Of a stretch of DNA of 64,000 bases, positions 26,793 to 52,674 are shown one piece after another. A program made the position numbers and the translations under genes. Position 1 is the stretch's first letter. The number at the start of each line of letters is the position of its first letter. Source of the DNA: Lagopus muta (lineage: Eukaryota > Chordata > Aves > Galliformes > Phasianidae); NCBI RefSeq assembly GCF_023343835.1, contig NC_064437.1:57114972-57178971 (forward strand). The letters run 5' to 3'. The notes under the pieces are model-generated. The model did no database searches and was not told the origin of the DNA. It worked only from the letters and a program-made list of their open reading frames with translations.

Positions 26793-34407
<7,615 letters not shown>

Positions 34408-35464: not shown

Positions 35465-35543
35465 TCTCCAATTCTGAAGGAACTTTCTAACTTGAAGCAT
35501 GGTGAACACAGTGATGCTACCTCAACCCCTCACTGGTTTCAGG
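35465..35543 (-). pseudogene. GUCY2G: GUCY2G relic block H, cyclase end exon
   Basis: An acceptor-like ATCTCTTTACAG precedes 35,543. The minus strand then has CCAGTG, a gap, and a 25-base stretch with CACTGTG and ATGCTTCAAG matching codons for DTVNMASR. TTAGAAAGTTCC follows (LESS for MESS), then AGAATT (RI). The MPRYCLFG part appears deleted, and an in-frame TGA or TAG occurs depending on frame. It is short and degraded but collinear with the other blocks. Confidence 0.45.
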
Positions 35544-38500
35544 CTGTAAAGAGATGTTGGATTTCTGCAAAATAGCCTCCTCAGAAGTGGGAACCAAAAG
35601 GATCACAAACATCTTCAAGCAGCATCCCTATGTCCCTATGTTAGCTGTTCTTTTGCTTTCTTTGGTATTCTAAACTCCACGTTCCATAATGGATTGAACT
35701 GTTTCTGAAAAGAGGAACAGCCCTCTGTGAGCATCATTTTATTACACAGAAACCACCACTCTAAATATGAAAGTTCCTACATAATTATATTAAGTTTCTT
35801 CAGCTCATTGTGCTTTCTGAAATAATTACAAAGATAATACATAGCTGGTTCTCTATTTGCTCCTCTTGGTGTGATTTCAATATATTTATAAAATACAGAT
35901 GTATTCATAAAAATGGAGAACAAAGCTGGTTGAGGTTGAGATTCTAGGAGACAGCATCCACCCTGCCAGCCCGAACGGTCAGCTCTGAAGGAGTGCATTT
36001 AGTCATTACGTACAACAGAGGGCACTCTCTTGACAGTATTGTCCGATTCAAACGACGGTTCAAAGAATTGTTACTGTGAGGCAAGTCTTGGCGGCACAAA
36101 TGTGCCACTAGGCAGAGCAGAGCTGTTGTACATCTTGTGAATCATTCAATATTTTCATCAGAGACCCCGCAGCTGCTTCTCCTCCATTTGCTCTCTTTTC
36201 CCTCTTCCCAATAACACCCCAAATTTCAAAACCTTCTACCCAGCAGCTTCATCTCTTCAAATTCTCATTCGCCACACAAGATTAACAGCATGACTTCTCC
36301 AAAGCTTGTTTCTTTTGCTTGCCCTTTGCAGCAGCCACTCTCCTCCTCCAGTCGTGGCTATATAGTGCAGAAACCCTTGAGCTGAGCACCCTTGAGAGGA
36401 TGACTAATTTTCTTCCTGATTATGCAATAACTTTTTCATTGGAACAAACCTTGCATGATTGCAGTGTGCCTCCAAATTCCCAGGCTTTCTCCCTGCCCAC
36501 CGTGGGATGGAGCCTCTGGGCATACATACCTCCCCGTGGTTACAGCACTGCACTGAATGTGGTCCACCCAGGCAGCTGGCTGTGGGTGCAGGATGGGCAA
36601 AGCCCTGTCACCAGTCCAAGTTTGGATCACTGTCACTCGACAAGAATCGTTTCTTGATAAATAACAGTAACTATAATAATACAGCCCCCAGAGGTGACTG
36701 TTAAAAGACCTGTCCCAGAATACAGTACCATATGAATAGGTTTCATCTCTAGAAACGAGTTAATTACTATTATTTAAGGTAGCACAAGTTGTCCATACTA
36801 AAAACCTTGCTTAAAAAATGTACTATACTTCACTTACATTTTTCTTAACCTTTCTTAATAATATTTACTGAGCTAAATAATATTTCTTTTCCAAAATTCA
36901 AAAATACATGTGTTGCAAATGGTTTTAGTGCAAGCTAATACTTGATAAGCTCCTTAATTTCAGATGAACTGTAACTCCACATCTTTTTCAGCTGTTAGAG
37001 CATGAAGGTGCTTGCCTAGATCTCTGCATCTGCATGTGAAACTCAAAGCCATTCATGGAGATGCAGGGAAAGGGAGGTTAGTTACAGTGAACACAGGTAA
37101 TCTGTTTAGAAGCGGATTTACCCAAAGGTTACAATTTGTCCCAATTCCTCCTATATGAACAAACTCCAAAGGAGTAAGAGATTTTACATGTTTATCACGT
37201 GTAGTCATTGTAAAGATGACACATAAGGCCACCAAGGTCATGGCAAGAATCAGAAGAGCCAGAGAACACACACAGGTATCAAAATAACACAGCTTGCAGC
37301 ACAATAGTGCTAGCACAGTGACATTTACACAATACTTTGGTCATTATATGTAGGTCACAATTCTCACTTGTGAATGGTAAACACTATTAGCTGTGATGGC
37401 CTTTGGCAGTCGCTGCATATGCAAATAACAAATAAGAAGGTCCAAGAGAAATTGCCAATAAAAGAGTGAGTCATACCTAACAAAATGTTCAGGAGTACAT
37501 AGCAGCAAGCATGCCATCTGCAGCTTCTTGCCAGCCTGGACGCTCTATACTCAGCACAGCAAGGCGCTAAAGTAAGAGACATCCTGAGCTGTCAGAGCTG
37601 CACTGTACCCTACAGCTTGTAGATCAGCACTCTTTCCAATACACTTAATTGTTATTCTGTCCTTCAAAAGCAATTGTGTAAGACGTGCTCCAGTTCTGAA
37701 TTCTGAGATAGATGCTGTTAAATGCCCCTATACAAAGCCCAATGGAATGGAAACAGCTTTTCTGTTGGTGCAACTGGGTCTCCAGCCTTCCCAGGCTGGT
37801 TCCACACAGAGCAGCCTGTGCCTCCTCTCCTGCTAAATTCTCTCTGCGTGTGGTTTCATCCACATTAACTGCCTCCTCTCACAGACTGGCTCCTTGTGGA
37901 GATTTACAGACTGTGACACAAAACACCACTGGTAGGGATCCCACTCTGCTGTAAGTTAGCCTTCCTTCCCTGCTTATGCTCACCTGCTCTTCTATTCAGA
38001 AAATAACATCAATATTTTTCTTCTCACAATGGCATACATCAACAGAAAGATTCGGGACGTGTGTCAAGGTGACCTAATTTTAAAGAGATGATTAACTCAC
38101 CATAGATAGCATGGACTTGTCAGCAACATGGCCCTGAAATATGTTTTGAGAAGATCCTGCAGGTTTAAATCACTCTATCCTTTTCCATAAGCACACTCAG
38201 CAGTGCAATATCCATATGATGCGGTACTGAGTGATGGGAATGGGGAACACTGATCCTACTCCTTGGTGAGTGATAAAGCCAATGTCTAATGCTAGAGCAG
38301 AGGTCTTGTTGCTGTGAAATGTTTGCTCTGCAGTATATATTTACACACTGATTATTCAGCCCTGATAGGGGTATTCTGAGCACATTTCATTGCCTTAATG
38401 CCCAACACTTCTACAGCAGCTTTTAAGGAAAACTTCAAAATACTCCAAAAACAGTAACTAATCTGAAAAACTTAATCCTCCCTCTACAAACTGAGAAAAA

Positions 38501-38976
38501 CTGAAGCAAAAGGATGAAGCCAGCAGATCATAGCAGGGTAGCAAGTCCGACTCCAACTCAACCTAGACACAGGGAATGTTACTTGAATAACAAAAATAGT
38601 CATCAAGGAAAAATAAGTGGCCTGACCTGATATCTGAGTATGAGTTATGAAATCAGAAAACTTGCCAATTTTGTATTTGTTTCATTTGTCTTAGAAAGAG
38701 ATAACCCATGCATACAGAAAATCAAGAGAACAAATGTAAAGGTTGTGATATACAATTAATTATCTATCTGGTGATCTACAATAACGACCCACGAGCACCA
38801 ATAGCAAACAGAAGGTAAAATTCAAAGGTTAATCACTTGGAATCTTACACCAACAGGTTCTACCTCACACTTGCAATAGGTGTATCATTATGCTTCAGTG
38901 GGTAGCAATTTCTTACCCTCTGCTGCACCCAGACCTCCACCTCTGGCTCACCAGCAGCCAGACCCAGTCTGTTTAC

Positions 38977-39149
38977 TTGTGCAAATGCCAATAACACAGT
39001 CTCAGCTCTCCGGGCATGGAGCATATCTCACAAGAAATCACAGCCATCAGGAATTTCAAAGGCATCACAACTATTTCTTCAGTGCAGTTGATCCCATTGT
39101 GGATGAGCTGGCTGCCAGATACCATATAGGCATCATCAGCAGTTTCTAC
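38977..39149 (-). pseudogene. GUCY2G: GUCY2G relic block G, cyclase middle exon
   Basis: The block starts after TTTGCTGAAG, a fair acceptor at the known exon boundary before VETIGDAYMV, and reads VETADDAYMVSGSQLIHNG, then EEIVVMPLKFL and MPGELRL. This aligns with the purine-binding VETIGDAYMV segment through RNG, DEI-TMSL and HMPEERL-LRIGLHTG. The glutamate is kept but IGD has become ADD. One Arg codon is missing after MPGE, and an extra base before the IGLHTG-equivalent shifts the frame. The block is 173 bases, near the usual size of this exon. The donor is weak (A|GTAAAC). Confidence 0.88.
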
Positions 39150-39284
39150 CTTCAGCAAAATCAATAATGAAAAACCAACTATTCTTATTAGATATACTAC
39201 AGGAGGGGAATAAGACCAACTTCAGCCAACTTTGGAGATGATTCAGACAAGAAAACTAAGCATAAAACCAGGAGTTAAGATGCC

Positions 39285-39455
39285 TTTTCTCCACTAGTTT
39301 CAGTGCTCTCTTCCCAAAAGCCACTTGCTTTGTGGTTGATGGAGGGAGAAATAAAGTTAATGGATCTATGTCTGAGAAGAAAACAGAGAACCAAACTTTG
39401 CAGCTCCACCAGTGTTTAAGCAATAAACTACAATCCACTGAAGTTGAAAAGGAGG
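39285..39455 (-). pseudogene. GUCY2G: GUCY2G relic block F, dimerization region and cyclase start
   Basis: Reading the minus strand from about 39,454, a gap-free match to MLPSFVGEQLIAGKSVE-ESF is interrupted by TAG at 39,428-39,430 (in place of Gln) and TAA at 39,416-39,418 (in place of Gly). About five bases are then missing. The frame shifts to SVFFSDIDPLT, the cyclase FFSDIVGFT motif that carries the metal-binding aspartate. QVAFGKRALKLVE follows, matching QVV-LLNDLY-LFD. This block combines the clearest family signature with the clearest inactivating changes. Confidence 0.85.
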
Positions 39456-39914
39456 AAAAAAAAGGATAGTTTTTTTGTGATTTGTATTTCTTGTTCATCA
39501 TCTCTTTCATTTGTCCAATGTTTCATTATTTTGGAAATAGGCAGAAGTTACTGAAAGCTTTTTCCAAACTTTAATAAATATCAAAGAACATGATTCAAGG
39601 TATTCACCATTCATCACACTGACCAATATTGACTTTGCATTTCTTCCCTACTTCTCCCCTTCTTCCTTTGCATCCAAAATTAGCTTGTATTTCTTACAGT
39701 CAAGAAAATGAGAGAAATACTTTGGTTAGCAAAACATCTGTACAGAGCCTTAATTGAAGGAATCAGGTAGTACTGATGACAAATTGTGTCTGTCTTCCTT
39801 CTATCTGCCAACAACTGCTTTGCCCTTTCTGCACCAATCCCTCCAAGCGATTGATGTCATTTTGCAGTTTACTCATCAAATATCAGAGTGCCATAGGCAG
39901 AGATTCCTCCCGCT

Positions 39915-39985
39915 AGATCAGGTTGCCCAAAACCCCATTCAATCTGAACTTGAACACCTCCAGAGATGCTGTGTAAGATCCCAAC
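39915..39985 (-). repeat. CR1 LINE fragment
   Basis: The plus strand reads GATCAGGTTGCCCAAAACCCCATTCAATCTGAACTTGAACACCTCCAGAGATG (shown here only by its start and end blocks GATCAGGTTGCCCA and AACACCTCCAGAGATG). It is the reverse complement of an internal part of the CR1 3' region. The element lies in a relic intron of the GUCY2G pseudogene. Its outer limits are unclear. Confidence 0.7.
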
Positions 39986-40299
39986 ATGCCTACTGGAACC
40001 TCTACAAGGATTGTGTTAGTTTATCATCCAGGGCTAAGAAACATAGCAAATAGTGTAGTGTGAGATTCCAGTAATTCTGTTTTGATGGCCGGATTTCATG
40101 GCAGGGAAGGGACTGACCAGTCCATTTGTATTACTAGTCTTTTCATGACATCCCATAGTTTGATCATGCTTTGGCCCTTCTGCTGGTGCATTTTTGCAGA
40201 ATCTGCATATGATGCTAAATATACAGTTCTTTCTCATTCTAGTTTAAATTGTAGCTAGCTGATGCAAGAAATAATTTTGAAAGAAAACAAACCATTCCA

Positions 40300-40390
40300 T
40301 CCAGGATAATTTAATACTGGCTGCAGGGGACCAGACAAAAGACTCATCCACTTCAAAAGCCTCTCTCTGACAGAAACCATCAGCCACAGC
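40300..40390 (-). pseudogene. GUCY2G: GUCY2G relic block E, end of kinase-homology domain
   Basis: The minus strand reads DESFVWSPAASIKLSW, which aligns with the DESPELRPIFPSIKKTL stretch near the end of the kinase-homology domain with one codon missing. Just before it, AAGTGGATGAG looks like TGCTGGGATGAG with a one-base deletion, so the conserved ECWDE motif is frameshifted. Confidence 0.55.
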
Positions 40391-40719
40391 ATTGAAACAA
40401 CAGAGTAGGTACATACTGCATCTTAAGGTCCCCTACAGTACCTAAGGTTAAGGTTACCTACAGTAACGGTGGTAACCACGGCTATCTTGCAAAATACAAA
40501 GCTGTAGGCTTGCATCCTGATCAAATTCTATCATAGATTACTACATAATGAAATACAGACACACTGAAAGGAATAAAATTTGATAATCTGATCATATGGA
40601 GTGTAGGGAGAGGGATTTGGCTGTAACAAGGCAGGATGTGACATTTTTAGGTATTTGAAATTTTTAGCTTATTTGAAAGCTTTTCACACACAGCAAGATT
40701 AATTAATATTTAGCTTCAA

Positions 40720-40878
40720 GAAGAGATTAAAAGAACATTTGTAATGAGAAGGAAGAGCATTGATTAATGATATGGAAGAACTCTGTCACTTCAGGCAATA
40801 TCAGTGATAGGTGGATGGTTGGACAAGATGATCTTAGAGGTCTTTTCCCACTTTAATAATTCTATGATTCTTTGATTG
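40720..40878 (+). repeat. CR1 LINE 3' end
   Basis: A plus-oriented CR1 tail with the blocks GGATGGTTGGACAAGATGAT, CTTAGAGGTCTTTTCCCACT and a terminal ATTCTATGATTCTTTG. The terminal octamer repeat is still visible. It sits between relic blocks D and E. Confidence 0.8.
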
Positions 40879-42010
40879 CATATCAGATGTAGTAACTGTA
40901 GTCTGTCCAAAACACCAAACCAATTAAGTGGTGACTGGTTTATTACTTGCCTAACCAACATGACATCTAGATTCAACTGGCTATTAATCATCTTCACTTC
41001 CTCTCTAAACCATGTATCATTGTCACGGTGGGTTGTCTGGCAGCTATTTCCCTTCTCTGAAACAGCTGCATTAGAGCAGTGAACAAGCTCATGCACATGC
41101 CAGAGTCCACAAAGCACCTGCTGTCTGTTAAGTGAAAAGCACAGCCTATTTGTGGTAATAACTCTCCTATAAGTGAGCAAAACTCGCACCGCACTTCAGT
41201 GAGAATTTGTGAGACATTTAATTCACTCGTTTATTTGTTGATTTACTCTTACTGATCAACGAGCACACAATAAAAAAAAATAGATTACTTAATTGCTACT
41301 AAAATTAAAATGCTGGACAGCAAAGAAGAGTTTCCCACTGAGCAGAACTGTTTAACTTCTTGCATAGCAGACTTGATATCTGAAGAGCTGTAGATCATAA
41401 CCAAAGATTGCAAGTAGAGAGAGGAGGTGAAGAAGCAGACACAGTTCCAGTTTGACACAGAACAAACAGAGCTATTGATTGGTACTAGTATTACCTGGAT
41501 TTAATTAAATGGTTTGTCACTGCAAAGCAAACATTTATGTACAGAATTTAATCACATACTTGTCCCTGGAAATTCACTGGGCTACTACTGAATAGGTAAA
41601 AGTGTATGATGTGCTGAAGGCCAATTGATTCTGTTGATTGAAAAGGAATTATTTTGGTGGCAGCTAAACATTGCCATCAACAATTCATCCATCATTCATT
41701 CTTGCAAGCAAACCGTCTGGATGCAATGCAAGATGAGTATAGAGCCTCATGCAAGAGACTGGCAGCAGAAGGCTTCTCTTTGCAGCAAAGAAAAATAACT
41801 TCTGCCAGAATATCAAACCAAATTAAGTGATAGAAAAAGCATTTCCTTGAGTGACAGTGAGTAGCAACTTTAACCAGCACAAAAACATTTGCAAACAAGA
41901 CAAAGACAAAAATAGCTTCATTCATCTTCTCTTCCACTCGCCTTTTGTGGAGGAAAACTTATTTTCAGAAATCTGTTGGGCTTTTTTTTAAAGTTGTAAT
42001 TTATTAGAAC

Positions 42011-42029
42011 TTTTTTTTTTTTTCTTTTT
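42011..42029. repeat. Poly-T tract
   Basis: Nineteen bases of T with one C. The origin is not determined; it may be the tail of an old minus-strand retroelement. Confidence 0.9.
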
Positions 42030-42599
42030 GAGGGAGTGCAATTTTGGCAATGCTGTGTTAAAATCCCAGAACTCCATCAGTATCTTGAAATTTACCATTT
42101 CCCCGTTTTGCAAGAGAATACTTCCCTGTTACTAAAAAATACAGAAGAGGGTATTTCTTCCTCTAGGGGAATTTTCAAGTCAATTCACTGTTTTTTTTTC
42201 TCCAAACTTCTGAGGGGAAAAATAAAACGCACAGATTTTTTCAACGTGTAAAAGTAATAGTAACAAAGCCTGACCTCACACACATACCCAACTACTCAAG
42301 AAAAACATTCTAGTCTTGATGTCCAACATTATTGAAAACATCTATCAAAGCACCTGAGGGTCCTCAACTGCCACAGAGAATAGACACTCCCCAGAGAATA
42401 GACACATCCTTCACAGGTCCATGCTTTATTTCTATTAGTCTGGCGTCTGTAGGGTGTACAGATCACCTCATTACAGTATGCACTGACCAGTGCTCTTAAG
42501 CAGAAATAGTCTCAGCCTGACACAAAGAGCTGAGTCACAGAGCAGTGCTCTGCTCCTGGAAAAGCCATGGGGAAGCAGTGCAGACTCCTTCTGTGCTTC

Positions 42600-42700
42600 A
42601 CTCATGAGATCAGCATGCTGGCAGGAATACATACCTCACCCAATACTCTTCATAGGCCCAACTCTAGCTTCAACATCCTGGGGTTTTCTAACTGCAACCC
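42600..42700 (-). pseudogene. GUCY2G: GUCY2G relic block D, kinase-homology domain
   Basis: The minus strand reads LENPRMLK, comparable with WTAPELL at DNA level, then after ten codons (twelve in the family) GEVCIPASML, comparable with GDVYSFAILL. An in-frame TGA lies between the two, and another follows at 42,602-42,604. Most differences from the family codons are single-base changes. The match is weaker than the cyclase blocks and relies partly on its position in the series. Confidence 0.45.
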
Positions 42701-43064
42701 CTTTTGTTGCAAGTGTACAGTTTCTGCCTTCTTTACCAATGATTTATTTTGTCTTGGTGCTAAACAGGCAGATAAGTGCGCCTTCATCAGGATTTTTCTG
42801 CCTTCTTTTTGATCTTTCAGTTTTACTCATATTTTATGATTAGTGTTCCTCTGGGGAAGTACAGGGAGGACAAAGTTGCTGTTTTGATCTGCACTGTCCT
42901 CTCAAAGTACTCAATGTACAGTCCCACAGTGTAATGCATGGGAGTGACCTAGGTCAGAGGTTGTTATGCTCCAGGCTTCACATGTGAACACATCCCTCCT
43001 CCCAGGTAAATGAGCAAAATGCTAATTTACAGTAAGTAGACTGACATCCTTGTCCTGCAGGTTG

Positions 43065-43260
43065 TTAGGATGCACCAAGCAAATGGAAAGCAGCACATGC
43101 TACCAGCACAGTGTTGTGGCCAAGTACCATGCCAGCAACAAGTCTGTCAAAAGTCTGTCTTAGGCATAATTTACCTAGACTCTGTGGCCTGTGCTGGGGA
43201 TCTATTGCTGAATTGCAGAACTGCATCTACATTACATCTACTGCAGAATTCTATGTCTTT
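43065..43260 (-). pseudogene. GUCY2G: GUCY2G relic block C, kinase-homology domain
   Basis: An acceptor-like TGTGTTCCCTTAG precedes 43,260. Reading on, KDIEFCSRCNVDAVLQFS aligns gap-free with the KDVLRTSDVEMDWIFKLSF region after the GSL motif. Further on, LVAGMVLGH matches DIVNGMLFLH near 43,127-43,142. A DNA segment at 43,068-43,090 matches codons for PSNCLVDS in a shifted frame. The spacing between these motifs implies small deletions and an insertion or relic intron. Confidence 0.6.
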
Positions 43261-43599
43261 CTAAGGGAACACAGCTGAAGAAAATATCTATGTATTTCAA
43301 AGATGATATAGGAATTTTGGAATCTAAGTAAGAAGATCTTCACTGATCACAGCTCTCAAAACCTGTGCACTTAATAGATTCCTACAGAGCTCCTATGCAG
43401 AATGCTATGAAACAGTCCTGAGTACAGACATCCTAATAGGAGATATTCTGACAACTGAATCACATAACCATTTAAATTCAGTTTTTTGCTCAGTCAATGA
43501 TTTGCCTTTTTAAGATACTAGGTATTTTGGATGAAGATCATAGAAGAAGCATAACATTCTCATTATAGACTTAAAGATGGAATAGATAGATTCAAATTC

Positions 43600-43645
43600 C
43601 TCATAGAAGAATTATAGAATCATTTAGGTTGGAATTGCATCAGTT
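43600..43645 (-). repeat. CR1 LINE 3'-end fragment
   Basis: The plus strand carries TTATAGAATCATTTAGGTTGG, the reverse complement of a CR1 3' terminus. Only about 40 bases are recognisable. Confidence 0.6.
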
Positions 43646-45825
43646 TTTGTCACAGAGTAATCATTGCTGAACGTTCTGACCTGCACTGTGCTACTGAAGA
43701 GTGTAAAGTAATGTAATACGTACACACAACAAAAGCAAATGGCAAAGAGGATGGTTGCACGTTTATCACCAACCAGTTTTCAGTACTAACAACACACTGC
43801 CTCAGCTGCATCCTGGCCCAGAGAAGAACATTTCCTGTTAGTAAAGCATCACATGCTTTCTGCAAGATCCATGTATAAGTCCTCCTTTAAACATCTAACA
43901 ACAAGGACCAAATCCACAGTTTTGGAAAGTCCACAGGGAGTCAACCTTTGGCCAAGTGTTTATTACCCACATGAATATCAACCATCACGAACCAGAAAAC
44001 ATTTCTTTACAGCTAAAAAAGAAAATTGGTCAAAGGAAACAAGCAAGAGGCTCAACACTATCCCATTTCAGTTCTAGGTAGTATCAGAGAAATGCTATGC
44101 ATTACACTCAGTTTTACATTCCCAGGTAAGAAATGCTGAGTTACAACCTGATGAAATCAAACTGATTTAACCTTGCTTTGCTCCCTTAATGCATTCCTGC
44201 TGATGCATACTAGGAAAACTGGAATACATGATCTCATTCCCTTATACATCTAGAGAGCTGTGGGTCCATCCACAAGGCAAACCAGATACAGTTGACCTCT
44301 GTGCAGATGTCTATTCTTTCCTGTTGATGACAAAGGAAACCTAGGATGACTAAACCTTCAGTTTAAGTAGTACAGTTAAGCACCTACAGCTAAACGACTG
44401 CATGTGCACAGAGCATGTATAATTCAACATCTTCCAGCTGGAGAGACAGGTTGCTTTCTCTTTGAAATGCTCATGTAACTAGGAGCAGAAATTCACTTAG
44501 TTAAACAATATCGACTGGACATATAACACTCAATAGAATAACTGGTCATACTCATTTTCTATCTTATTTAATAATGTTGTATACTTGACAATGCCAAATC
44601 CAAATGATAAAGGAAAACTGTATTTGAACTGGAACTTCTAGTAGCAGACAGTACGTACTTGAAGTTCTCCTGCTGCAGGAACACATCTTCTATATTGTAT
44701 CTGACCTTAACAAACGTTAACTAAGCTGGTTTTGCACAGATACATATTTTATCTGCTTACCCCTACACAGCAGCTTCAGGTGAGTGTCCAAGTAGCACAG
44801 CACAATTCCAGCCAAATACTTCAGACTTTTATGTAGTTCTTCTAACCGTGATGGATGAAAGATAATTTTGATATAAGTGGCTGAGAAGGATGTTGTGCAG
44901 TGTTGCTATCTGATCACATAAACAATGGGATATCACAACCAGAAGGCCAAAAAATGTATCTAGGGATGATGACAAGATGACAGGTTTTTTGTGTCATAAA
45001 ATAAAAATAAAAAGTTACTTTGTAGTGCAACTCTGAATCATTCTGTAATCTTCACTCATCCCAGTTGTCACTTGGTTCTGGATTTTGTCTCACAAATCAG
45101 TTTGGTTCTATTCACAGCTTACAGCTTAGGGTTGTTTTTGTACTTGATAATATCATGAGCAAGTTCCATCATAAACCTTTGACTGTTAGCTAAACCAGTT
45201 ACTGCACAGCTGAAAAATTACCAGATCTAGCTTAAATTGCAGATGACTGTCCACTCTTCTCTGCTCAAGAACAACAGTCAGCCACATACAGAGATCAGCC
45301 AACACAGCTTTCTTATAAATCCCAGATCTGTGACTCAGTCATCTGGTGTCAAGTTTGAACCTTCAGCAATGAACTGAGCCAATGTCTTCAGTTGTTGGGC
45401 AAATGAAAATGCCCACATCACCTTATTCCCTCTGGCAGGGCTGAGGTTTACTACTGTTATCCTAAGGTAGGATACAACAGGGAAATAATTCCCACATTTT
45501 TAACCCACAGATATTTGTCTAACTTCCTTCTATCAAAATACTGGCATTCTTTGCATTATTGGAATAATACTTGCATTGAAGATCAAATTTCAATGGCTTT
45601 GGCCTGATGTTGTTTTTAGAAGAGGCCACACTGAAAGGAAGGAACTTGCAGAATAGGTAGAGAATGCAACAGATGACAAATAGAAGTAACAACAGAGAAT
45701 TATGTGTTATCTAACCCCCATCAATCAGCAATAGAACTTCTTTTCCCCCTTTATATGTCTCTACCAAAATGTATGTCCAGTAACTCAAAGTGTTGAACAA
45801 TTTTGTCCCTAAGCAACCTCTGATT

Positions 45826-45843
45826 AAAAAAAAAAAAAAAAAA
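45826..45843. repeat. Poly-A tract
   Basis: Eighteen consecutive A residues in AT-rich sequence inside the GUCY2G relic region. No parent element was recognised. Confidence 0.9.
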
Positions 45844-46965
45844 GTGAAATCAATTTACTAGGGAAAATGTTGCTAAGGAATGAAAGCAATCAAGCAAACA
45901 AAACCACTGCAAGCTGAAAGTTAACCATTCTTCCCTAGAAGCATGACCCATGAAACCATTTGCAGCAATCTTGTGACAGTGCAGAGAATGGCACATCACT
46001 CCCTGCAATATAACCGAGAGCAGGAACAGGCACAGCTGTGTTATTGGCTCTTGGGCATCCTTTCTAAGAACTTATTACACCCTCATTAAAACACTGCAGC
46101 AACACCCCCCTGTGAGCCACAAACCACTGACACCAAAAATCACACAAGTCCTTTCGATGAACAGTTATTTACCTTTGACACACTGCTGTAAACTGTATTT
46201 TAACTCTGAGTACCAAACTTTCATTAAAGAAGTTTCAATACCCAAAAAGTATACAGAAATTGTTGAAGAACCATTACTGTAAAAGTGACTTCATTCAGAA
46301 AATCCTTTCCCAATCGGTGTAATTTAATGGGGAAAAAAATAAAAATTCAGACTGAAATTCTTCACTAGTTTGCTCCAGATTTTAGAAGCCATACTGGAGG
46401 CAATCTTGTAATCACATAAAACATCCCACTAACAGTCTAGAGAGCCTGCTGGCAGGCAGGGTCCTGTGAAGGGAGTGAAGGAGTGTTTTCTGGTTTGCAA
46501 TCTTATGAGTAGGTTGGGTAAATCACTAAGGTGAATGCACTGCATAAAAACAAGTTATTATTATGTGAGGGTGTAGGTGTCAGTATAAAAGATGGGTGAG
46601 TAAGCAACTGAGAAGCAAAGCACAAGAAGCTAGCAGCAGTGCTAAGGAGATTACAGAAACAACAGTGATACTGTATTGAAAGAGGTGAGTGACTGAAAAC
46701 ACAAAAATTACAACAAAATAACTTGAAATCAAAAAACCGTTGCTTGCTTTATTCATTTGGGCAAAGATGCATAGCTGATGGTAACAACTCTGTGTTGCCA
46801 TAGGATTAAGGCTTTAATGATATTTTTTATCTCTTCTGCTCTCCCTGGTGCGGTTTGTTCTCTTGTACGAAGCTTCTTAATAGATGCTAAGATTTTTATG
46901 GTTGTATGTATGATGAATGTATTTTCTAGAATATCCACTTCCACACATCATTTTTGCCTTGCACT

Positions 46966-47011
46966 TACTATCATGCTATCATGCTATCACTTTGCTATTA
47001 TGCTATCATTT
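46966..47011. repeat. CTATCATG short tandem repeat
   Basis: About four to five imperfect copies of CTATCATG/CTATTATG, with one CACTTTG interruption. Confidence 0.8.
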
Positions 47012-49229
47012 GCTTTTTGGGACTGAAGATGAGTAAAAGAAAAAGGATGAAGAGAAACCCTAACTCTTGTGAGAACTATTTATGTCTGGACATTTGGAAA
47101 GAGCAGAAATAAACATCAGATAAATGACCACTATCAAGTACAACAAATTGTGAAGCATGTGGACTGGATAAAATGCCATATAAAGAGCTAAGAACCAATT
47201 TATACTGGTACATATTTTTGAAGACTATGTTGACTTAGTGCAAGACTGGAAGAATGCAAATAGCATCAGACCCACATGAAAAAAAGATGATCCAGTAACA
47301 ACGTGGATGCTATTTTTTTTTCTAAATAATGAAGCAGTAATAGTACTAACAGTATATACCACACTGGTGACTGCACAGAAATAAGTGAAGCCATCAACAG
47401 TACTGGTTGGATATACTTGACCACGCCAGACAAACATCATAAGGTTTTTTGTTGTTGTTGTTCACTAAAAAAAAAAAAATTGCAAAATGAAGAGATAAAG
47501 AGTATTCAAATGAGATGAAATCTAGCTAGGTGTTACAGAGGTATTTCCTAATGCGACTTCTTGCAAAAACTTAACCTGAAGAAAAAAAAAAAATTAAAAG
47601 CACCAGTGTGCACCAGCTTTGGATGGAACAGAAATAAAGGAAAGCAAAGAAAGACTCACTGTTCCCAGCACCTGCAAGATCTCCAGCGCCCTGGGTTCTC
47701 CCTCCAGCTTTGCTGAGAGGGTGAAGCTGAACACCTTTTACATTAGTTTCTGCTTTACCTTTGTGTTTGAGACCACCTCTTGTGCATTTGGACAACAAAC
47801 TAGGATCTGGAAGTATGACATTCATATGAAATAATTAATGATACTACTTACACCAAAGGTATTACAACAGTATGTGGGTGTTTAAAATGAAGTATGGTAT
47901 GTGGCTGCTATCAGGAGGAAGACTCAATCACCTGTGCTCCTCACCTGCTGAAACATGAGTAGGTTTGGAATCACAGCATGCAGAACAAGGTGTTACTGTG
48001 GGACAAAACATTTTTGAGCAGTCTATGCAGTGTATGGGGCAGATACTGCTTATTATGGCCAAGTAGTTTTTAGTCTTCACAAAGCACTGATCTGATCTGC
48101 CAAATGTTCATTGATTTAACTAATGATCCATTTCTCACAGATGATGATGCTTTGACATTTATAGATTGTATAGCATTTATGGCATGCTAGTGCAATCAGA
48201 GAGACAGATTACATTACATGATACAGACACTGGCTCTTCTTGGATGAGGTAACTGCCTCCAGGAAGGTTTCAAGCTGGATTTTAGCAGTTATAAGCAGAG
48301 ATGTGCTGTTACAGGAATATTTCCTAGCACTCACTTTACTCTTGAATAATTCTACCGGGAAGCACATTCTTTGGATTTCTATAGAGCCAGCCAAAATGTT
48401 GTGACTGCAGTCTTAGCCAATTCATTTAGAGCTACATACAGCTGGATAAGCAAAGCTCAAGGCACACCCCTGGGACAAGCCACACTATGGCAGGTGTTAG
48501 ATCTGAGAAGTTAAGGAAGGAGCAGGCTATGTGTGCCAAAGGAGAGGCACACTCAGGGGCCTAGTGGCCTAGAGAACAGGAAGATCCCACAGTACAGCAG
48601 TGAATCTTAACTGTGCACTGTGCTGTGGATGAAATCACTGCCTCACACTTGAACTGCAGGCAGCAAGAGGAGAGCCTGAAACACTGTCCTGGGCTGTATG
48701 CACGTATAGCTGCAGACAGCCTGCTGATAGTCAATTAAAGCATTTATCAGATTTGTATCAACTGTGGCAAGTCATTTTAGAAAGCAAACAAAACAAAACA
48801 AACTCAGCTGGAGAGCACCAAGACTGGAATTAAAATAATGCAAATTCCACTCAGCTGTATCTGCCTTCTTGCTTGTTAGGTTTGCTCTAGCACTGATTGT
48901 TTCTAGAAACTGCTTTGTAGGAAGCACCCCAGAGAGAAGTCAGCTCTTTGTATGAAGCCCAGCCTACAGCCACTGACATCTCCAGAGCTCAAGGTAGCCG
49001 AAGAGCAAAATCTTGCCCGGACCTACTATTAAGTGCTTTCTGCCTGTTACTTGTTACAAATGACAGAGAAACAAATCCCCTTCCCTCTCACTTCCTAACA
49101 GAAAACAACAGTTTCATAGCATAAGCAATAAGCTTCCAGATCTGGCTCAGGCCCAAGTGTCGCACATCAAAAGCAGCGAGAAGTGGTGGGAGCACCGCAT
49201 TCACACACAGCAAGCTGGGGCTGGGTACG

Positions 49230-49400
49230 TACAGAAGCTGCAGTCCCCACATCCTCCTCACCCCACATTTCTCAGCTCATTGCAGCAACTACGTGCAGCA
49301 GCACTGAGGTGTCTTTGGCCGTTGCAGACGAGCAGCAGATCCTCAGGATGAATTTAGAGCCAGTGACGCCATATCCGGTGAAAATTTGTTCCTCCCTTCC
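49230..49400 (-). pseudogene. GUCY2G: GUCY2G relic block B, ectodomain
   Basis: The minus strand of 49,311-49,355 reads KFILRICCSSATAKD, which matches the VIILICSS-DAK segment of the ectodomain with one extra residue. The frame runs on through VLLHVVAAMS into an in-frame TGA at 49,272-49,274, where the family continues. The block is GC-richer than its surroundings, as expected for a former exon. It lies about 1.1 kb downstream of block A in gene direction. Confidence 0.7.
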
Positions 49401-50404
49401 CTTTTCCCAACAAGATGAAGCACACAAACTGCAGCCCAGGTTAAAAGTTCAACCTACACTGAGGGAACCTGCACTGTGATGAGAACAGACTTACCCCAAG
49501 GTAAGTCTGTAACCCCTCATTGCATGAAAAGCTGAATAATAGGGCAGTACTTCACATTCGGAGATGGAAAAATCACAGACCAGAGCATTTCAACTGGAGT
49601 TCTAACGTTCTCCAGTGGAAGTGAAAAGCTTTTGAGAGGGAAAGGTCGCTCCTCTTCTTTCCCTCTTTCCCCCCCCCCTTAAAATACAGTTTTGTCTTCC
49701 TACTATTCTCACTGTTCTCACTCAAGGCTTTTCTCCTTGACTTGGAAACAGACCAGGAAGTTAGCTCACAAATGTTGTTTAACTTAATCATCATCTAACT
49801 TGACTAAGCCTTGTTTATTTTATTATTACTTTTTTTAATGTACATGCAAACTTTACTAGGAAGCCAGACAATTTCAAAGGTTTTTAAAAGGCTAAAGGTT
49901 TAAAAATACGTATCTAATTTGGGTTGTGATATTTTGGGTATAAAAGCATAACTTAAATTTTAATGTCTGCCTATGAATGCTAGACATAATTTCAGCAACC
50001 AGAAACTTTGTACTTCAGAATGCATCAATCTCAAACTTTAACAGTGGGAAAGGACTTGTTATCTTTCAGTTTAGACATGTGATCTCAAACTCAGAAGAAA
50101 GTAAGCAGAAAAACTCAACAGTAGAAGGATGTCAGTATTTTTACTGAGAAAATATTTTAATATCATGCTCAGAGATGTCCACCACAGTAATCTGTGAGCT
50201 CAGAGGCAAAAGAAATGTATCAGAGGAGACAGATATCCACATGAATTCCTCCTAGCTCCTGAGAACAGCTTCCAGATGCATCTCTCCAGAACAGCTTGTA
50301 AAAGGAACACAATATTTCAGCATATACACGAAAGCAGCAGTGAAGCTGCATCTTGCCAAGGGTGATGGATGCAGCCAGGCCAGCTATTAGACAAAACCTT
50401 CCCC

Positions 50405-50660
50405 CCACTGCAGCACTTCCCACTGAGATTGAGAAGCCAATGGTCCAAGCATCACGCTCAAGTAGAAGCCCAGAATCACTGGACTGGGAAAAAAGCAAAC
50501 CACAGGATGTCACAGTCCACTCAGCTGCTTCTTGGACCATCCGGCCTAAAAGAGCTGAAATATTTGCCTGCTGAACATGACAGATGAAGGCACTAAGAGG
50601 CTTCTTTACATCACAGACAGAATCAGTATAACCAAAAGGCAGGGTAAAGTTGGTACTGAA
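50405..50660 (-). pseudogene. GUCY2G: GUCY2G relic block A, ectodomain
   Basis: Read on the minus strand, 50,520-50,648 gives an open frame with YTDSVCDVKK, FICHVQQANISALLG and EAAE. These align without gaps to the part of the GUCY2G ligand-binding domain with the YT-S-C, F-VQ-ISLG and PEAAE pattern. The cysteine is kept, but the usual GP-CPEAAE has become GRMVQEAAE. After EAAE the match continues only by changing frame: a stretch like DIPVFDF, and GEVLQ near 50,410-50,420. A long minus-strand open frame over this block (50,220-50,726) is a chance extension, not the ancestral frame throughout. Confidence 0.8.
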
Positions 50661-52024
50661 GGGCACACTAAGACTATGTTGTTTCCAAGTTGCAGTACAT
50701 TTGAACCTGAGACACATACCTCCCATTCCTCTTTTTATTCTGCTGGTTCAGCTTCTTTGGCTGTCACCAGATTTTAAACAAATAATCCTAATTAACCAAG
50801 GATTTTGGCTTAATCAGAGCAGATAAGGAAGTTCCAAATCCCCAGGCAACCTAGGTAAACACCTCCACGTACCAGCAAATGGTCCAGAAGCAGTAGGTGG
50901 CACTCAGGGCCCTATGTGTTGCTCAGGGTATCATCTGTGTCCCTCAAAAAGGAGCTACCAATCGCTGCTCCAAACACCTAACTGACTTTTTTTTCCTGCC
51001 CATATCATTTTTCTGACCTTCAAACTTTTACACAATCAAGAGCTCACAAGTAGTCCAATACCATCAGTGACAAAGGTCACGAAACTACCAAGGCAGAAAG
51101 GTTGCTTTTTTACAGCCAACATACATTTATTTTCCATTCTCCCGCATTCTGCTTATCCTGTACTTTCCTCCTCTTTCTGTAAGTTGTTTTCTTCTTTTTA
51201 ATAAGGTTCTTAGCACTGCCTGTCTTTCACTGGACATCAGGAGCAAATCCAACATAATTTACTGGCTGTGAGAGTCTTATTTTATTTTGATTCATGTGAA
51301 ATAGCCCACATGCTCTAAAACAGAATATGTAACACAAATAAAATATGACTGAGCTTCCCTGGAATAGGCAGCAGAAAAAAACATGGGCATCAGGCCCAAC
51401 TGGGCCTGAAATTTTCTAAGAAAAGTTTTCTTGAAAAGTCAACCGTTGTGATTGCAGTACAAATGCCACAGATCCACATTAGGGCATGTCACACACTCAT
51501 CCGTTGTACATGGATTAATCAGGTAGACAAGGTCATTTACTCACCTCATTCCAAACCCTAACTAAACATGACGCAGGGGTTACAACTCCTTCATAGGAAG
51601 TACTGATTGCCTAAGTTTGAATATCACTACATTTTTTTATTGACGAACTTCTTTAAACACCAATGCACACCTATTTTTATTCAAACAAACTACGTCTTCA
51701 AGATCAATAGCTTCAACGGACACAAAGTTGAATACAACTGTTCTTCACCTGTAAAATCATGAAAAACACCGTGTGCTATTGAAACTACCTCAATTATTAT
51801 CCCTAAATTTCTGAATCTCGTTTTAGGTACCAAAATACAAGTACAAGAAAAGTACTTTCAAAAAAGGAAGGTTTAACTAAAGTTTAGCTACACAGTTTAA
51901 AGCAATGTCTCCTTTTGTGATCTTGTGCAACAAGGATATGAAAAATCCCTCTAGCTATTGGAGCATTTAGCTCCAATGATCCATTTCAACAGATTTCTAA
52001 AGAAATACATAATTATCTTGGAAA

Positions 52025-52674
52025 TTAAAGGTCATGCCAATACCAGATGGCAGTGGTCAATGTACCGAGCTGCTGGAGTTCAAGGAGTGTTTGGACAGTG
52101 CTCTCAGACAAAGGTTTTGAATTTTGGGTGTTCCTTTGCAGAGCCAGGAGTTGGACTCAATCCAGAGCTGTTGGAATGGGTCCAGAGGAGGGCCACAAAG
52201 ATGAACAAAGGGCTGGAGCACCTCTCCTAGAAAGAAAGTCCAAGTGAGTGGGCTTGTTCAGTCTGGAGAAGAGAAGGCTCCTGGGAGACCTCATTGCAGC
52301 TTTCCAGTACTTGAAGGGAGCTTACAGGCAGGAGGAGGACCAACTTCTTACACAGTCTGATAACAACAAGACAAGGGGAATGTCTTTAAGATAAAAGAAG
52401 GGAAATTTAGGTTAAGTGTTGGGAAGCAATTTTTTTACTCAGAGGATTGTGAGGAGCTGGCGCAGGCTGCCTAGAGAAGCTGTGGATGCCCCACTTCTGG
52501 AGATATGAGGCCAGATTGGATGTGATCCTGGGCAGTCTGATCTGGTGGGTGGCAGCCCTTCTCATGGTAGGGGGGTTGGATCTTCATGATCTTTAAAGGT
52601 CTCCTCCAATCTATACCATTTGATGATTCTATGTTCCTCAGTGATCCAACTCAGGATATTCTGTGATTCTATGG
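52025..52674 (+). repeat. Older CR1 element split by a nested insertion
   Basis: The first part (52,025-52,160) has the CR1 blocks GAGCTGCTGGAGTTCAAGGA, TTTGGACAGTGCTCTCAGAC and GAGCCAGGAGTTGGACTC. The expected continuation (CAACTCAGGATATTCTGTGATTCTATG) appears only at 52,648-52,674. Between the two lies a second CR1 copy. Both are on the plus strand. Confidence 0.85.
52161..52633 (+). repeat. Younger CR1 element nested in an older CR1
   Basis: A 5'-truncated CR1 of about 470 bases. It begins near TTGGAATGGGTCCAGAGGAG, continues through GTCTGGAGAAGAGAAGGCTCC and GAAGGGAAATTTAGGTTAAG, and ends in GATGATTCTATG. The preserved blocks make it one of the better-conserved repeats in the window. Confidence 0.88.

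Follow-up and report, generated by a model that had tools for sequence, protein, structure and literature searches.

We analyzed a 64,000-nucleotide stretch of the genome of the bird Lagopus muta (assembly GCF_023343835.1, contig NC_064437.1, forward-strand positions 57,114,972 to 57,178,971), referred to here as the window and numbered from its first letter. Between TECTB (beta-tectorin) on the left and ACSL5 on the right, both on the plus strand, the minus strand holds the decayed remains of GUCY2G, the gene for guanylyl cyclase G (GC-G). A preliminary description, made from the letters alone, had reported eight minus-strand blocks following the protein from N to C terminus. The strand and the order were recovered, but the count of eight was too high: five blocks stand, perhaps six, and the lower end of the relic lies near 38978. 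The blocks are as follows, with column numbers that follow crocodile GUCY2G (Crocodylus P0081).

50484..50660, minus strand: block 1, GUCY2G ectodomain, columns 83-137 (tblastn E 4e-10 with P0081; 72.0 bits)
44637..44912, minus strand: block 2, GUCY2G ectodomain, columns 147-244 (tblastn E 8e-4; 47.5 bits over columns 159-244)
41307..41401, minus strand: block 3 (moderately supported), part of the ectodomain, columns 247-280 (29.8 bits; collinear)
39756..39870, minus strand: block 4, dimerization/signalling-helix segment, columns 816-853 (33.1 bits; collinear)
39367..39387, minus strand: tentative block 5, SVFFSDI, first cyclase exon, columns 873-879 (20.8 bits)
38978..39152, minus strand: block 6, cyclase catalytic exon, columns 916-974 (tblastn E 3e-7; 63.1 bits)

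Reference proteins were fetched with a mouse GUCY2G query, and the best 120 of 4,430 matches were mostly named GUCY2G or guanylate cyclase and ranged from mammals to sharks. Ten GUCY2G proteins chosen from these 120 served as tblastn queries, with the low-complexity filter and the composition correction switched off. All 10 matched 50651-50484 on the minus strand (E 4e-10 to 3e-5; 57% identity over 56 columns for crocodile, E 4e-10), and all 10 matched 39152-39006 on the same strand (E 4e-8 to 1.3e-4; 51% over 49 columns for crocodile, E 3e-7). Block 2 or the 3' part of it was matched by 7 of the 10 at an E value of 0.012 or less. The search with a reptile GUCY2G that the preliminary description had proposed thus gives, with crocodile, significant minus-strand matches in order (E 4e-10, 8e-4, and 3e-7).

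A profile built from 26 GUCY2G proteins (crocodilians, turtles, squamates, tuatara, monotremes, amphibians, and coelacanth; all taken from the mouse-query matches except the tuatara protein, which came from those of a crocodile query) and aligned locally with tolerance for frameshifts recovered five minus-strand blocks in N-to-C order, at 72.0, 47.5, 29.8, 33.1, and 63.1 bits over columns 86-137, 159-244, 247-280, 816-853, and 916-974. The controls reached at most 21.6 bits on the plus strand of this 18-kb segment, 26.5 bits in 60 dinucleotide shuffles, and 28.7 bits when 20 profiles with permuted columns were run against the real strand; the remaining minus-strand matches listed for the profile all scored 25.5 bits or less. 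The blocks at 72.0, 47.5, and 63.1 bits are beyond doubt, the block at 33.1 bits is clear, and the block at 29.8 bits is marginal by score and rightly placed.

On sequence grounds, the relic is GUCY2G and not a paralog. The cyclase exon in block 6 is identical to the ten GUCY2G proteins at 28 to 34 of 58 positions, versus 14 to 27 of 48 to 57 positions for seven receptor-cyclase loci fetched from the same genome, and the ectodomain blocks were unmatched by those loci, taken as 10-kb stretches that do not cover every ectodomain. A whole-genome search with crocodile GUCY2G gave 46 matches, with 42 of 98 candidates scored. It recovered block 1 at C8:57165485-57165631 on the minus strand (columns 83-131; E 4e-6), which is window 50514-50660. 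One other match lay near the N terminus (columns 42-211, 25% identity); it is 13 kb upstream of the cyclase locus matches at C1:191.69 Mb and probably belongs to that locus. The cyclase domains of the seven fetched receptor-type loci are 61 to 70% identical to that of crocodile GUCY2G, versus 81% for coelacanth GUCY2G. The preliminary description had named an absence of similarity to receptor cyclases, or an intact copy elsewhere, as grounds for giving up its reading. Neither turned up: similarity to GUCY2G is significant, and the assembled genome showed no second, intact GUCY2G among the 42 scored candidates and the seven aligned receptor-type loci, the other cyclase loci of a genome scan with PF00211 being taken, by pattern and with the help of an HNOBA scan, as soluble or adenylyl cyclases and left unaligned.

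The frames are broken. Scored alignments of the five blocks contain 2 stops and 7 frameshifts in total: two in-frame stops and three frameshifts in block 2, one frameshift in block 3, two in block 4, and one in block 6, while block 1 has no stop and carries a 4-codon in-frame insertion. Gaps of 5.6, 3.2, 1.4, and 0.6 kb separate the blocks. At block 6, an AG directly precedes GTAGAA at the position used as acceptor site in five of six paralogs (the sixth alignment begins later), and a GT is kept at the donor site of five of the six, both judged by eye. Because kilobase gaps separate the blocks and splice dinucleotides are retained, the relic is not a processed copy; the loss of introns that marks such copies is not seen. 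The stops and frameshifts and the intron-sized gaps of the preliminary description both held. What is left is the recognizable remnant of a single gene with disabling changes, as a unitary pseudogene should be. An ectodomain, a transmembrane segment, a kinase-homology domain, and a complete cyclase in one open gene, which a functional receptor cyclase has, were not found together, and no working receptor is expected from the relic.

Large portions of the gene were not detected. Nothing credible was found for columns 281-815 (the rest of the ectodomain, the transmembrane segment, and the kinase-homology domain) with the profile and local shuffles. One kinase-homology match (columns 769-778, 40880-40851, 25.5 bits) tops the local shuffle maxima of 21.1, 23.7, and 24.8 bits and was rejected for its overlap with an interspersed repeat at 40734..40872. 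Columns 281-815 require 1,605 coding bases, and blocks 3 and 4 are only 1,436 bases apart; if block 3 is real, part of the transmembrane/kinase-homology middle has therefore probably been deleted. No match to columns 1-85 rose above shuffles up to ACSL5, and none to columns 975-1089 did so down to TECTB (best score from 38977 to 32700, 19.0 bits versus a shuffle maximum of 23.9). Deletion is likelier than drift for columns 975-1089, because they include a highly conserved exon, in which crocodile GUCY2G agrees with several paralogs at 80 to 88% of residues. The domains claimed at the outset thus stand for the ectodomain, the dimerization segment, and the cyclase exon, whereas the kinase-homology part overlaps a repeat and the C-terminal cyclase was undetected; the extension of the relic down to 35465 was not borne out, with nothing credible between 38977 and 32700.

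The relic lies at the ancestral position of the gene. TECTB was located by tblastn with a TECTB query, and its zona pellucida domain (PF00100) was found at about 30876-31052 (E 7e-9); ACSL5 occupies 65392-76216 on the window scale, plus strand, just beyond the right end of the window. The orientation of TECTB, GUCY2G, and ACSL5 in mammals matches that seen here, which agrees with what the preliminary description said of TECTB. In dog, PMC7589484 gives the identical gene set, TECTB, GUCY2GP, ACSL5, and ZDHHC6. The other features of the locus are as follows.

28599..32698, plus strand: TECTB (beta-tectorin), conserved exons (tblastn with a TECTB sequence, E 3e-36, 5e-31, 2e-46, and 9e-6)
40734..40872, no strand assigned: interspersed repeat inside the relic, matching repeats in two other loci of the genome (L006 and L007)

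We take the repeat inside the relic to be CR1-like. Another interspersed repeat, at window 52041-52580, is common to several other loci of the genome and is presumably CR1-like as well. A repeat search of the relic locus also returned two A/T-rich inverted pairs.

GUCY2G protein models are present in crocodilians, turtles, squamates, tuatara, frogs, and fishes, and those of crocodilians, turtles, and squamates are full length, so that intact orthologs exist in relatives, as a unitary pseudogene requires. Birds were missing from all three lists of protein matches, although crocodilians, turtles, squamates, or tuatara were present in them: there was no bird GUCY2G model among the best 120 of 4,430 matches to the mouse query, none among the best 120 of 5,129 matches to the crocodile query, and no bird among the 12 named of 13 matches to the crocodile ectodomain alone (proteins of about 215 to 680 residues). 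A bird ortholog should rank near those of turtles and hence within the listed matches.

Across the five blocks, 71 of 113 near-invariant residues (about 63%) are retained, where a near-invariant residue is one shared by 95% or more of the 26 profile proteins. If each codon is taken to have 2.25 replacement sites, the decay amounts to about 0.21 substitutions per site. A rough decay time is then about 83 million years at an assumed rate of 2.5 per billion years and 138 million years at 1.5; no published avian neutral rate turned up in the literature search. Counting only recognizable blocks biases this age toward younger values, and imperfect constraint before the loss biases it toward older ones. 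Taken together, the missing bird models and the residue decay would place the loss around the time when living birds arose, or earlier. The loss is probably old and bird-wide, and the loss in "a bird lineage" proposed in the preliminary description, which holds as a unitary loss here, was probably drawn too narrowly.

Very probably the correct reading of this locus is a decayed GUCY2G that still occupies the ancestral site of the gene, flanked by TECTB and ACSL5, and that was likely inactivated early, before living birds diverged. Inactivating mutations would have come first, and later deletions would have removed the signal-peptide end, at least part of the transmembrane/kinase-homology middle, and the last cyclase exons; the loss would be common to all birds and on the order of 100 million years old. 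There is a good chance that a single loss of GUCY2G, on the bird stem and later than the crocodilian split, left a relic that every living bird still has in the TECTB-ACSL5 interval, and that the GC-G route for cool temperature and danger odor was given up in the Mesozoic, in parallel with the mammalian losses.

Several observations weigh against a dead, anciently lost GUCY2G. Large expected portions of the gene are absent. Block 3, at 29.8 bits, barely tops the maxima of the shuffles and the permuted profiles, and block 5, though rightly placed, scores within the range of 40 gap shuffles (mean, 14.3 bits; maximum, 23.8 bits). Among the weaker minus-strand matches, some are out of order, including columns 197-206 at 43957-43928 (23.5 bits), within the shuffle range, and columns 362-370 at 41863-41837 (23.0 bits), rejected as also below the shuffle maxima. 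Scans with Pfam, which covered two of the three minus-strand frames of 35 to 50 kb and ten pieces, returned no cyclase or ligand-binding domain; the relic is therefore faint, and such scans are too insensitive for decay of this degree. A genome scan with PF00211 also showed no match in the window. Block 1 lies within a 175-codon open frame (window 50220-50747, minus strand), the longest between 34 and 52 kb, and a frame of that length was matched in 1 of 60 shuffles. Finally, bird-wide loss rests on protein models missing among the listed matches, where models shorter than about 215 residues would escape, with no known bird protein as positive control behind these nulls and DNA from one bird genome.

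There is some room for a young loss confined to the bird's own lineage, a galliform-specific pseudogene, since the DNA comes from a single bird and the two best blocks carry no stop. We consider this unlikely, because no full or partial bird GUCY2G stood among the listed matches where other sauropsids appeared and because the greater part of the gene has vanished or can no longer be recognized, with the near-invariant residues of the remainder eroded to 71 of 113. The long open frame around block 1 would suit a different history, in which the two strongest blocks were reused as exons of another gene or of a noncoding transcript and the locus is not plainly dead. Block 1 keeps 15 of 21 near-invariant residues and the remaining four blocks together keep 56 of 92, which is about equal loss, and the alignment of block 1 requires a 4-codon insertion; reuse is accordingly a very improbable account. 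A processed or duplicated fragment of some other receptor cyclase, brought to this site by chance, could draw on the catalytic exon, which is common to receptor cyclases and through which six of the seven fetched receptor-cyclase loci also match the block 6 site. This origin is already contradicted by the kilobase gaps and the kept splice dinucleotides, by ectodomain blocks that match GUCY2G, and by the ancestral place and orientation, and we give it hardly any credence.

The same gene, between the same neighbors, has been inactivated in place in human (PMC1435932) and dog (PMC7589484), as GUCY2GP; the pseudogene status of the human gene had been stated correctly from the start. The bird event is independent, on another amniote branch, and differs in that the middle and the end of the gene are undetectable. 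The nearest living relatives of birds, the crocodilians, have full-length models (Crocodylus P0081 and Alligator P0082) that are predicted to be functional, in contrast to the broken bird gene. Clade-wide losses of the same kind, that of GC-F (GUCY2F) in all sauropsids and that of GC-D (GUCY2D) in turtles, are described in PMC7674705; they concern other genes and another date, and neither "GUCY2G" nor "GC-G" occurs in its main text. The 274 genes reported as missing in birds are likewise largely kept by crocodilians and lie mostly in syntenic clusters (PMC4290089), whereas the neighbors of GUCY2G are present and a relic is left; GUCY2G is absent from the main text of that paper, its supplements lying outside our scope. 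The literature searched, including PMC10061024, PMC6170504, and PMC2911116, does not mention a bird loss of GUCY2G, with supplements and most subscription journals outside that search. The bird relic is therefore a new case of a known kind, clade-wide receptor-cyclase losses and mammalian GUCY2G pseudogenes being already on record.

The GUCY2G protein of living relatives is predicted to act as a receptor in the membrane and to produce cGMP, and mouse GUCY2G has been described as a sensor of cool temperature and predator odor. The link to the Grueneberg ganglion drawn in the preliminary description has a basis in mouse work and says nothing direct about birds. If our reading is true, it assigns the loss of a sensory receptor to the bird line and gives that loss an approximate date, whereas crocodilians, turtles, and squamates keep the gene; birds would join the amniotes that live without a receptor that mice use for cold and danger odors. 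The TECTB-ACSL5 interval would then be a concrete place where disabling changes common to birds could time the loss.

TECTB lies at 57 Mb on C8, the contig of 65.9 Mb that carries the window in the 1.03-Gb assembly. The length of C8 matches that of chicken chromosomes 6 and 8 combined, a possible sign of fusion in this lineage. Contig C165 (16,683 bases) of the same assembly carries a mitochondrial cytochrome b that, among solved structures, scores highest with 1bcc, the chicken complex (812.6 bits; 665.6 for the next chain), in keeping with a bird. As a lister of receptor cyclases, HNOBA (PF07701) was tried and rejected, since its eight matches are presumably soluble cyclases. Two of the receptor-type guanylyl cyclase loci carry a "RAGIH" catalytic motif: L002 (C59:69966000-69975900), with a cyclase domain 61% identical to that of crocodile GUCY2G, and L008 (C24:5506000-5515900), with a fused catalytic exon and 67% identity. 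To our knowledge, neither is obviously among the classical seven receptor cyclase types. Two further cyclase domains, at C18:2696188-2696676 and C18:2752529-2753104, lie in uninterrupted frames of 680 and 477 codons, which is unusual for a vertebrate genome.

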